In this document: one piece after another, positions 35,844 through 64,000 of the stretch | How positions within the stretch are numbered: the first letter of the stretch is position 1 | Layout of the letters: each line of letters opens with the position of its first letter | Assembly: GCF_004765605.1 (NCBI RefSeq) | Contig: NZ_SRLC01000001.1 | Span: forward strand, 992,001-1,056,000 | Length of the DNA: 64,000 nucleotides | Direction of reading: 5' to 3' | From: Hymenobacter aquaticus | GTDB lineage: Bacteria; Bacteroidota; Bacteroidia; Cytophagales; Hymenobacteraceae | Translations under genes and position numbers: made by a program | The notes under the pieces: model-generated | Database searches by the model: none | What the model was told of the DNA's origin: nothing | The model's input: the letters and a program-made list of their open reading frames with translations, nothing else

Positions 35844-35966
35844 CCGGCGAGGCGGTGTCGTTCGGCCGCCGCAGGGAAGGCGCAGCCGGCCTCGGGTGCA
35901 ATGGGGCCGTAGCCCGCCGAGTCGGGCGAAACAAAAAACTGTAATCTGTTTTAAATAAATCTCAAA

Positions 35967-36016
35967 GTAGTCTACAAGTGTGTAATCTATGCATAGATTA
36001 CACACTTGTAGACTAC
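35967..36016. promoter_or_regulatory. 50-bp perfect palindrome before the helix-turn-helix gene
   Basis: Two 25-bp arms with no spacer (GTAGTCTACAAGTGTGTAAT... and its exact complement, centre ATGCAT). It ends 13 bp before the ATG at 36030. Its AT-rich sequence contrasts with the surrounding high-GC DNA. It could be an operator for the adjacent regulator or an mRNA hairpin that blocks its start. The paralogous gene at 63699 has a different long palindrome at the same distance. Confidence 0.95.
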
Positions 36017-36029
36017 AACTGCTACCGCT

Positions 36030-36665
36030 ATGTCCCGCCGTGTCCGCGCTTCCGACAGTTTTATTTTCCGGCTACGGGCATGGTTTGGCCTGCGCCAGGA
36101 CCAGCTGGCCCTCTACGCCGGGGTCAGCAAGGCCACGATTCAGGCGGTGGAAAGTGGGCGGCGCACGGCCCCGAGTAAAATGCTGCTGGCGTTGCGGCCC
36201 CTGTTGATGCAGCTGCCCCCTCCTACAGCCCCGCCTACGCTGACGAAGAGAGCCGCCCCCCTTGCCGCGCCGCTGCCAATGGGTACCTTGCCCGTCGGGG
36301 CCGGCACGCCGCTGCCGGATGCGGAGGAGCTGGATTTTCGGCGGCGCGTGTGTTTGCACCAGGCCGCGGGCCTGCGCATGCAGACCGAGAAAATCGAAGA
36401 GCAGGCCCGCGTTATTGCGCGCTGGGCGCAGGCCCTGCCCGCGCTGCTGGAGGCCCACCCCGCCCCCACCGCCGAGGAAATTGCGGCCGATGAGGACGCG
36501 GTAGAGCACCACACCTGGCTGCTGGGCTGGCTCCGGCGGCAGGCCCGGCCGTTGCCGGCCGAGGAAGTCACCCGCTGGCACCTGCTGCAAGCCCGCATGG
36601 CGGCGCTGGAGGCCGAAGCCGCTACGCTGGCCGCCCGGCTGCCGCCGGCACCAGCTACCGAATAA
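36030..36665 (+). CDS. Helix-turn-helix protein with C-terminal helical domain
   Basis: A 211-residue putative DNA-binding protein. Residues about 12-50 (RLRAWFGLRQDQLALYAGVSKATIQAVESGRR) have the Cro/CI-like helix-turn-helix pattern. A Pro/Ala-rich linker (about 60-100) leads to a helical, Glu/Arg/Ala-rich region (DFRRRVCLHQAAGLRMQTEKIEEQ to the end), probably coiled coil or oligomerising. No Shine-Dalgarno; the ATG lies 13 bp after a 50-bp palindrome. A 195-bp inverted-repeat element follows the stop by 20 bp. It is paralogous to the gene at 63699. Autoregulation through the palindrome is inferred, not shown. Confidence 0.85.
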   Translation: MSRRVRASDSFIFRLRAWFGLRQDQLALYAGVSKATIQAVESGRRTAPSKMLLALRPLLMQLPPPTAPPTLTKRAAPLAAPLPMGTLPVGAGTPLPDAEELDFRRRVCLHQAAGLRMQTEKIEEQARVIARWAQALPALLEAHPAPTAEEIAADEDAVEHHTWLLGWLRRQARPLPAEEVTRWHLLQARMAALEAEAATLAARLPPAPATE

Positions 36666-63424: not shown

Positions 63425-63583
63425 CAGGAAATCGGACCAGCTAGAATCGAAACTTGCTCATTTCATTGGTGACGGTATCAGCCAGCACGCAGGAAATCGG
63501 ACCAGCTAGAATCGAAACAGGTAGTCCATCGTGCCATTCGGGTAAAACCAGTTACCTCAACCGGACCAAGCCGGAATAGCGGC
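63425..63583. repeat. 29-bp direct repeats spaced at 65 bp, third copy degenerate
   Basis: Exact 29-bp copies at 63425-63453 and 63490-63518 (CAGGAAATCGGACCAGCTAG... ending ATCGAAAC). A degenerate third copy follows at 63555-63583 (core CCGGACCAAGCCGGAAT). Start-to-start distances are 65 and about 65 bp. The spaced GGACCA-GC-GAAT cores resemble the multiple terminal repeats of IS21-family ends; a two-spacer CRISPR-like array is a weaker reading. No transposase or cas gene is in the window. Confidence 0.8.
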
Positions 63584-63608
63584 GAAGAGTATATCTGGCA
63601 GCAACTTT

Positions 63609-63684
63609 GTTACCGGTTTTAAAAAAACAAAAACTTGTAACGGCATTCCTGTTACGGGTTTTCGTATTTTTTAAAACCGGTAAC
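63609..63684. promoter_or_regulatory. 76-bp palindrome before the second helix-turn-helix gene
   Basis: Outer arms of 18 bp are perfect (GTTACCGGTTTTAAAAAA and complement). Inner arms (ACTTGTAAC, TGTTACGGGT region) are imperfect. The palindrome ends 14 bp before the ATG at 63699. Its sequence differs from the palindrome at 35967-36016, but position and scale are the same. Confidence 0.92.
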
Positions 63685-63698
63685 CAACCTTCTCTATT

Positions 63699-64000
63699 AT
63701 GACAACTGCTCCGGGAGAGCTTCTTCCCCTTATTCGCTCCTACCTGGGAGTGTCCCAATTGACCCTGAGCAAGTATCTGGGAATTGGGCGCGAGCAGCTT
63801 GCCTACGCCGAGTTGGGCACCCGCCCCCTACCACGCGTCGCCTTGCTCCCTCTGAGTCGGTTGGTGCAGGCCCTGCCAGCGGAGGCGCTGAGTCCGTTAG
63901 CTGCCGGAGAGGCGGCGGCTAACGGCGGCCCGCTGCCGGAGCTGCCCGCGCCCGCAGCCCTGGTGCAACGACAACAGGAGTGCCTGCGGGAAGCCGGGCA
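63699..64000 (+). CDS. Helix-turn-helix protein, paralogue of 36030 gene, cut by window edge
   Basis: The first 100 residues are present. LIRSYLGVSQLTLSKYLGIGREQLAYAELGTRPLP aligns with the helix-turn-helix of the gene at 36030 (RAWFGLRQDQLALYAGVSKATIQAVESGRRTAP), and the following LxxLVQALPAE with LRPLLMQLPPP. A Pro/Ala linker leads to LVQRQQECLREAG, matching DFRRRVCLHQAAG in the paralogue. No Shine-Dalgarno; ATG is 14 bp after a long palindrome. Like its paralogue it is probably a DNA-binding regulator. Confidence 0.85.
   Translation, partial: MTTAPGELLPLIRSYLGVSQLTLSKYLGIGREQLAYAELGTRPLPRVALLPLSRLVQALPAEALSPLAAGEAAANGGPLPELPAPAALVQRQQECLREAG

Follow-up and report, generated by a model that had tools for sequence, protein, structure and literature searches.

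Few kinds of bacterial regulator are as common as the XRE-type helix-turn-helix (HTH) proteins. In type II toxin-antitoxin operons, the HTH gene comes first and is followed by a small second gene, the promoter carries a palindromic operator and many paralogues can be present per genome. The C-proteins of restriction-modification systems are XRE-type HTH proteins of ~80 aa with an autoregulatory operator, encoded beside restriction genes. Divergence of DNA-binding proteins together with their sites has been treated in other families. Cluster A mycobacteriophages are reported to possess one immunity-repressor family whose DNA specificity has diverged into separate specificities (PMC6550527). In two further papers, recognition-helix residues of the MerR family are reported to correlate with operator bases (PMC5045206), and co-divergence of duplicated lac repressor-operator pairs is modelled (PMC1464816).

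We analyzed a window of 64,000 nucleotides (bases 992001-1056000 of contig C1) from a 5.5 Mb Hymenobacter genome. Two genes in the window belong to a family of HTH regulators that invites comparison with all of these systems. Like type II toxin-antitoxin operons with XRE/HigA/HipB-type antitoxins, the family combines a regulator-first gene order with a palindromic operator and a high number of paralogues. In contrast to such operons, its small partner has no convincing match to a known toxin family in the 3-4 cases searched, the intergenic gap is mostly wide rather than short or overlapping, the half-sites lie nearly three DNA turns apart, half of the members are solitary, and strong members are confined, in the samples examined, to Hymenobacter and one split-off genus code. 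The regulator shares the XRE-type HTH with C-proteins, which are among its nearest folds, but at ~200 aa and with an extra C-terminal domain it does not qualify as a controller protein; recurrent neighbour clusters of the members were, by eye, not restriction-gene-like. Unlike the Cluster A repressors, the members are chromosomal as far as seen (by eye, the neighbours of the sampled loci look like diverse chromosomal genes) and numerous per genome, and genome-wide searches for two of the operators placed one solely, and the other almost solely, at its own gene. As described for MerR and the lac pairs, helix residues correlate with operator bases, and duplication would be followed by co-divergence. 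The Hymenobacter family differs in that the sites stand immediately before each gene, where they can be read off, and in that single genomes harbour at least a dozen natural specificities side by side. We found nothing matching this layout in the open-licence literature. Autoregulated HTH genes with palindromic operators and the co-divergence of factor and site are already known; new here are the lineage-specific expansion, the private operators built from units, the readable relation between helix and site and the unnamed partner.

Results

Two paralogous regulator genes with different palindromes

The gene at position 36030 (36030 to 36665, + strand) encodes a protein of 211 aa that matches Pfam HTH_3 with 30.9 bits (cut-off 23). 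Its structural model (pLDDT 88, pTM 0.75) predicts an XRE-type HTH with helices in residues 11-59, a low-confidence Pro-rich linker up to residue ~97 and a helical C-terminal domain (98-203). The second gene lies at the right edge of the window, which contains its 5' part (63699 to 64000, + strand); the rest lies beyond the window, where the last codon ends at G000:C1:1056271, and the full product has 191 aa. Pfam reported HTH_19 alone for this protein (E 0.12), and its family membership was assigned by homology to the 36030 gene. The paralogy of the two genes, suggested by an earlier note on this DNA, was borne out: in a BLASTP comparison of the whole proteins, 184 columns align at 31% identity (E 1e-7), and the alignment extends into the C-terminal half. 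A failure to align beyond the HTH had been set beforehand as one result that would count against the note's reading, and the proteins do align past it. In an alignment of 18 paralogues from the same genome, W145, L146, R171 and E178 are kept, all of them outside the HTH.

Upstream of the 36030 gene, the inverted-repeat score is 25, compared to 10 for the best of 1000 dinucleotide shuffles. A perfect palindrome of 50 bp (35967 to 36016) ends 13 bp before the ATG. It starts with the right half-site of operator unit 1 (TGTAATCTG...AGTAGTCTACA, 37 bp, 35940 to 35976) and covers all but the last base of operator unit 2 (TGTAATCTA...GTAGACTACA, 37 bp, 35981 to 36017); operator features are given without strand, and the units were located by genome pattern search. 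Before the edge gene, the earlier note had described one palindrome of 76 bp with perfect outer arms of 18 bp (63609 to 63684), ending 14 bp before the ATG at 63699. Arms, length and distance stand, but the element is better described as two tandem units than as one palindrome, namely unit A (GTTACCGGTTTT...AACTTGTAAC, 33 bp, 63609 to 63641) and unit B (GTTACGGGTTTT...AAAACCGGTAAC, 34 bp, 63651 to 63684), which were found by the same pattern search. Taken slightly wider, the arms (63606-63626 and 63667-63687) comprise 21 nt each and are 95% complementary. The 160 bp upstream of the edge gene reach an inverted-repeat score of 18, and 0 of 1000 dinucleotide shuffles scored as high (best shuffle 14). 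The two palindromes indeed differ, with GTTACCGG-type half-sites at the edge gene and TGTAATC-type half-sites at the 36030 gene.

In the whole 5.5 Mb genome, the pattern of the edge unit has just 2 matches. Both lie upstream of the edge gene and read on both strands; the reversed control pattern has 0 matches. Genome-wide, the 36030 unit pattern finds its own two units and one other place (C1:2533136), with 0 matches for the reversed control. Units of the TGTAATCT type without a detected family gene were seen in the C1:2533136 region (L227 1433-1537) and in a relative near G045:C1:556886 (L231). Both orphan sites lie near dnaJ and keep their half-sites while their spacers differ; they may be orphan operators, remnants or targets of another member. 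The C1:2533136 site lies upstream of a gene that we take to encode an ECF sigma factor; on its opposite side, at a greater distance, there is a dnaJ region. In G045, a similar site follows dnaJ, while the orthologue of the 36030 gene carries TGTCATCT instead. Because of this different placement and the different half-site of the orthologue, we rejected C1:2533136 as a simple conserved regulated target.

Just left of the edge gene lie two identical, CRISPR-like direct repeats of 29 nt (63425-63453 and 63490-63518) with a 36-nt spacer. To the right of its partner gene (L003 1900-6681), there are Cas6- and Cas3-family genes and two further genes without a Pfam match. The edge cassette is thus placed between the repeat pair and an apparent CRISPR-Cas gene set. 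It also neighbours a gene that is presumably topoisomerase-like. Among 16 relatives compared at this place, no HTH member was found in up to 1.5 kb upstream of the topoisomerase-like gene (flanks were shortened by contig ends in L240 and L244), and no clean insertion ends were readable. One of the relatives, G100 (L236), carries a decayed partner remnant (18.5 bits) upstream of the topoisomerase-like gene at the place of the edge cassette, with no HTH member detected beside it.

The regulator family in Hymenobacter

In total, 137 distinct members were collected by hmmsearch, including L113 and L169, which have no usable start, and a second hit inside the L051 gene. They derive from 100 regions of 15 other genomes and from automatically picked loci; the 15 genomes were chosen among those with the strongest matches and are a non-random draw. 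A7 omits L215 (ambiguous base) and L218, and A5 omits the truncated L214. The genome of the window carries 18 strong full-length members and 1 weaker one, i.e. about 19 real members compared to 22 counted at E 1e-4. Across 101 genomes of the genus including this one, the best match falls below E 1e-25 in 49; another 28 yield weaker matches only, and 24 yield none at 1e-4. With up to 32 candidates scored in each genome, copies per genome reach at least 30-32 at E 1e-4, a count in which some matches cover the HTH only. The regulator family was present at E 1e-12 in 60 of 200 genomes, belonging to 2 of 6 genus codes, in a sample of the taxonomic family, and in 22 of 291 genomes in a sample of the order, where matches outside the taxonomic family were all distant. 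The member of G109, which represents the second genus code, is identical to a member in H. busanensis in its start and in the sequence upstream.

Of 8 members searched against Pfam, 4 exceeded the cut-off for HTH_3, and the 36030 gene is one of these. The predicted fold of the HTH domain resembles HipB, C-proteins, SinR and P22 c2 with a probability of ~1, but with E 0.2 or worse; by fold (weak E of at least 0.2, probability 1.0) and by profile, HipB, C-proteins and HigA are nearest. For the C-terminal domain, fold comparison gave generic helical matches only and no named fold. The same neighbour genes stand beside several members in different species. Neighbours beyond the partner are diverse, and partnerless members likewise stand between diverse genes. 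Two individual members deserve mention: a divergent one (L033/L059, C1:575600) has a partner and a private cluster of GCGCAA-type repeats, and another (L021/L050, C2:669123) has no in-frame ATG near the expected start, perhaps owing to a non-standard start or a frameshift.

Putative operators are built from units of 33-41 bp

Inverted repeats with a score of at least 9 precede 119 of 137 members (87%) within 160 bp of the start, leaving 18 of 137 below the threshold. The same score was reached by 17% of 300 other genes from the same loci, 1.9% of 411 shuffles and 21% of 136 stretches downstream of members. The median best score was 14 for members compared to 6 for other genes, 6 for shuffles and 7 downstream of members, and scores of at least 20 were seen for 29% of members, 3% of other genes, 0% of shuffles and 6% of downstream stretches. 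Among the upstream regions listed, a common plan is recognisable by eye, in which a half-site of 7-9 bp is followed by an A/T-rich spacer and then by its inverted counterpart. Such a unit measures ~33-41 bp from end to end, with a length peak at 37-38 bp, and is present in 1-4 copies in direct or inverted orientation. Since there are members with 2-4 units standing direct or inverted, we regard the unit of 33-41 bp as basic and rejected the long palindrome as the basic element; two units standing inverted yield a giant palindrome. The two arms of big palindromes (51 compared) remain 93% alike in the median even past their outer 10 nt, a hint that one arm is corrected by the other or that symmetry is under selection.

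A fixed distance of 13-14 bp between palindrome and ATG, put forward as a feature of the family, holds for the edge and 36030 genes but fails family-wide: measured from the last half-site to the start in 130 members, the median spacing is 20.5 bp with an interquartile range of 10-40 bp, and we dropped the idea of a rule. For unit extraction 134 members were kept, of which 130 gave a unit; this set includes several terminator hairpins (e.g. L139, L182 and L070) as well as units read in the wrong direction. We also considered whether the units contain a Bacteroidetes-type promoter (TTG, then TA..TTTG) and rejected this for lack of reliable matches, the full motif occurring about once in the 130 upstream regions and TA..TTTG showing no strand preference in them. 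Before single regulators, L147 and L106 have adjoining units with different half-sites (GTAAGGCA and GTAGGGTA), possibly an operator caught between two specificities.

Recognition helix and half-site covary

The proposal that regulators and operators are cognate pairs diversifying together, with the palindrome covarying with the residues of the recognition helix, is well supported by a table of contact residues and by partial Mantel tests (p<=0.002). In 112 members with a unit of 33-45 bp and an arm of 7 or longer, similarity of the helix was associated with similarity of the half-site when C-terminal identity was controlled (partial Mantel r 0.171, with 0.054 as the largest value among 500 permutations). 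Of the single columns, helix position +6 ranked top and +2 was likewise among the best, the numbering being relative to the S of LGVS. At a C-terminal identity of 70-90%, the 8-bp half-site was identical in 22 of 25 pairs with residues +1, +2, +5 and +6 all alike and in 0 of 16 pairs with 0-1 of these four contacts alike, with the reservation that pairs share members and are non-independent, and that the close group of L056, L099, L152, L161 and L185 supplies many of the 25. At 60-70% identity, half-sites were identical in 6 of 8 pairs with identical contacts vs 2 of 40 with 0-1 contacts alike; the background is 2% of 6216 pairs. More distant pairs with identical contacts had half-sites alike at 8/8 positions in 9 of 29 cases and at 7/8 or better in 14 of 29, and of the distant pairs with a fully identical helix 0 of 3 were alike in the half-site. 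This weaker agreement implies that the code does not consist of the contact residues alone and that some extracted units are wrong.

Several correspondences can be read directly. The helix ...YVADIE goes with TTTTGCAGC in L043, L095, L105, L112 and L072, and the orthologues L228 and L229, which have the helix YVADIE and lie outside the test set, again carry TTTTTGCAGC. The helix ...KHIE is found with GTACC, ...RAIE with GTACGG, and ...GH(L/I/V)E with GTAG in most of 14 cases. At one conserved place with the same downstream gene in L097, L107, L148 and L156, RQVQA or RQVEA is accompanied by GTACAC and RHVEA by GTACCY; helix and operator have changed together here.

Half-sites of paralogues in the window's genome were alike at 7/8 positions or better in 8 of 105 pairs vs 6.1% when shuffled. 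Within genomes, half-site pairs were not clearly less alike than between genomes at equal identity, and this comparison revealed no depletion of alike half-sites within genomes, which weakens the insulation part of our reading. The sites of paralogues have diverged, though they are no more different than chance, and these comparisons give no sign of selection for insulation.

A small helical partner follows half of the regulators

Downstream of 70 of 135 members (the extra L051 hit included in the count), on the same strand and within the flank, lies a gene for a helical protein of ~136-141 aa (~138), recognisable by LTTRAECD-like residues close to the N-terminus and AHRATL-like ones close to the C-terminus. 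The order of regulator plus small partner that is typical of type II toxin-antitoxin operons is thus present in 70 of 135 cases. All 10 partners in the window's genome stand beside an HTH member, so we rejected the idea of partners elsewhere under the same operator; 9 of 19 members have no partner. For one partner subgroup in named genomes, 18 of 18 loci had an HTH gene upstream and 17 of 18 had repeats visible by eye. An intact partner without a regulator was not seen at any of the places examined. On a FastTree of 130 members, the presence of the partner changed at least 27 times. Regulator and partner genes are separated by less than 70 bp in 4 of 58 measured cases (with uncertain start codons), by 70-120 bp in 30 and by longer gaps in 24.

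Searches with partners gave no match above curated cut-offs in Pfam and NCBIfam, none convincing in PHROGs (3-4 partners) and none convincing among PADLOC defence models (3 partners). The partner model predicts three helices with the look of a plain helical coiled coil (pLDDT 83, pTM 0.48), and fold comparison returned generic helical matches only. Partner divergence tracks the C-terminal domain of the regulator more closely than the HTH (partial r 0.61 vs 0.32, 67 pairs). Its linkage to the regulator suggests that the partner may be a protein in need of control, for example a toxin or an effector, or that it may modulate the regulator.

Discussion

The genomes contain a regulator family with unit-built operators, two of which are nearly unique genome-wide, with covarying helices and half-sites and with a linked partner. 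We consider it probable that these are autoregulated cassettes organised like antitoxin-toxin operons, in which operators and recognition helices co-diverge. A cassette would comprise 1-4 units that form its private operator, an XRE-type HTH regulator of ~200 aa and, in about half of the cases, a ~138-aa partner in the same orientation. We infer from sequence and models how it may work. The regulator would dimerise via its C-terminal helical domain, and two HTH heads on long Pro-rich linkers would bind the two half-sites, an arrangement that would suit half-sites nearly three DNA turns apart. The choice of bases would be made mainly by recognition-helix residues, above all +6 and +2, and occupied units shortly before the start codon would repress the cassette's own promoter. 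After duplication, helix and operator would diverge together, with insulation from sister cassettes perhaps favoured by selection. The least certain step concerns the partner, which would most likely be an effector or toxin-like protein under the control of the regulator.

A sharper form of this explanation is a new type II toxin-antitoxin system, in which the HTH protein would be antitoxin and autorepressor, the 138-aa protein the toxin, and partnerless members orphan antitoxins. The gene order, the HTH gene often found alone while an intact partner never was where examined, and the proximity of the HTH domain to HipB, C-proteins and HigA agree with it, as does a partner that co-diverges more with the C-terminal than with the DNA-binding domain. 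However, the partner resembles, by the look of its model, a plain coiled coil and matches no toxin family or PADLOC entry convincingly, 54 of 58 gaps are 70 bp or more, and in G100 the decayed remnant of a partner persists at a place where no HTH member was detected; we therefore advance this sharper form only tentatively. That the partner might instead be an antirepressor or co-sensor capping or mimicking the regulator's C-terminal domain, the cassettes being small feedback switches, strikes us as rather unlikely. Both parts are predicted as packed long helices and both co-diverge, but helical bundles resemble one another by chance, the genes past the partner are diverse and half of the members have no partner.

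It is very improbable that the palindromes act as RNA or DNA hairpins (5' leader structure or cruciform) in place of protein sites. The two palindromes of the window (z -8.2 and -8.9) and that of L041 (z -9.0) have strong predicted folds and the arms of big palindromes are alike far inwards, yet half-sites covary with recognition-helix residues, the mainly direct units of L008 fold weakly (z -2.5, four regions folded) and the edge region has no Rfam match at gathering score. As three of the four regions fold strongly as RNA, an additional role as leader RNA is possible, which would leave the covariation unexplained. We give next to no credence to a mobile element, for instance REP/RAYT-like or phage-derived, with palindromes as its ends or immunity sites, and the suggestion of a mobile regulator family found no support in the comparisons and searches made. 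The patchy distribution, the wide range of copy numbers and solitary cassettes between diverse genes would fit such an element. Against it, matches of either protein include no transposase or integrase family (a MobT relaxase matched weakly, over the HTH), repeats are enriched upstream but near control level downstream, and several members stand beside the same genes across species. In REP/RAYT systems, a transposase stands beside REP palindromes dispersed in many copies, while the edge operator pattern occurs in the genome only before the edge gene. By tblastn, plasmid records matched neither regulator nor partner (one query sequence each) and 50,697 phage records did not match the 36030 regulator; viral contigs scanned for one partner subgroup contained none.

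Going beyond the autoregulated cassettes, it is conceivable, if far from assured, that the family is a new two-gene system, selfish or defensive and restricted to the genus, whose copies each form their own DNA 'immunity group', with operator, helix and partner diversifying such that up to ~30 copies coexist without cross-talk. Its orthogonal XRE repressors would then make up a naturally evolved library from which a helix-to-base recognition code could be read.

The sites of XRE-type HTH proteins are rarely readable from sequence, and the Hymenobacter family is the contrast. Since a likely site immediately precedes nearly every family gene, genomes can be mined for large numbers of regulator-site pairs. 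Such pairs may serve to test the recognition code, to predict new specificities and to supply candidate orthogonal repressors. The family also exposes an unnamed partner family tied to the regulator, and it offers a natural experiment on the parting of duplicated regulators.
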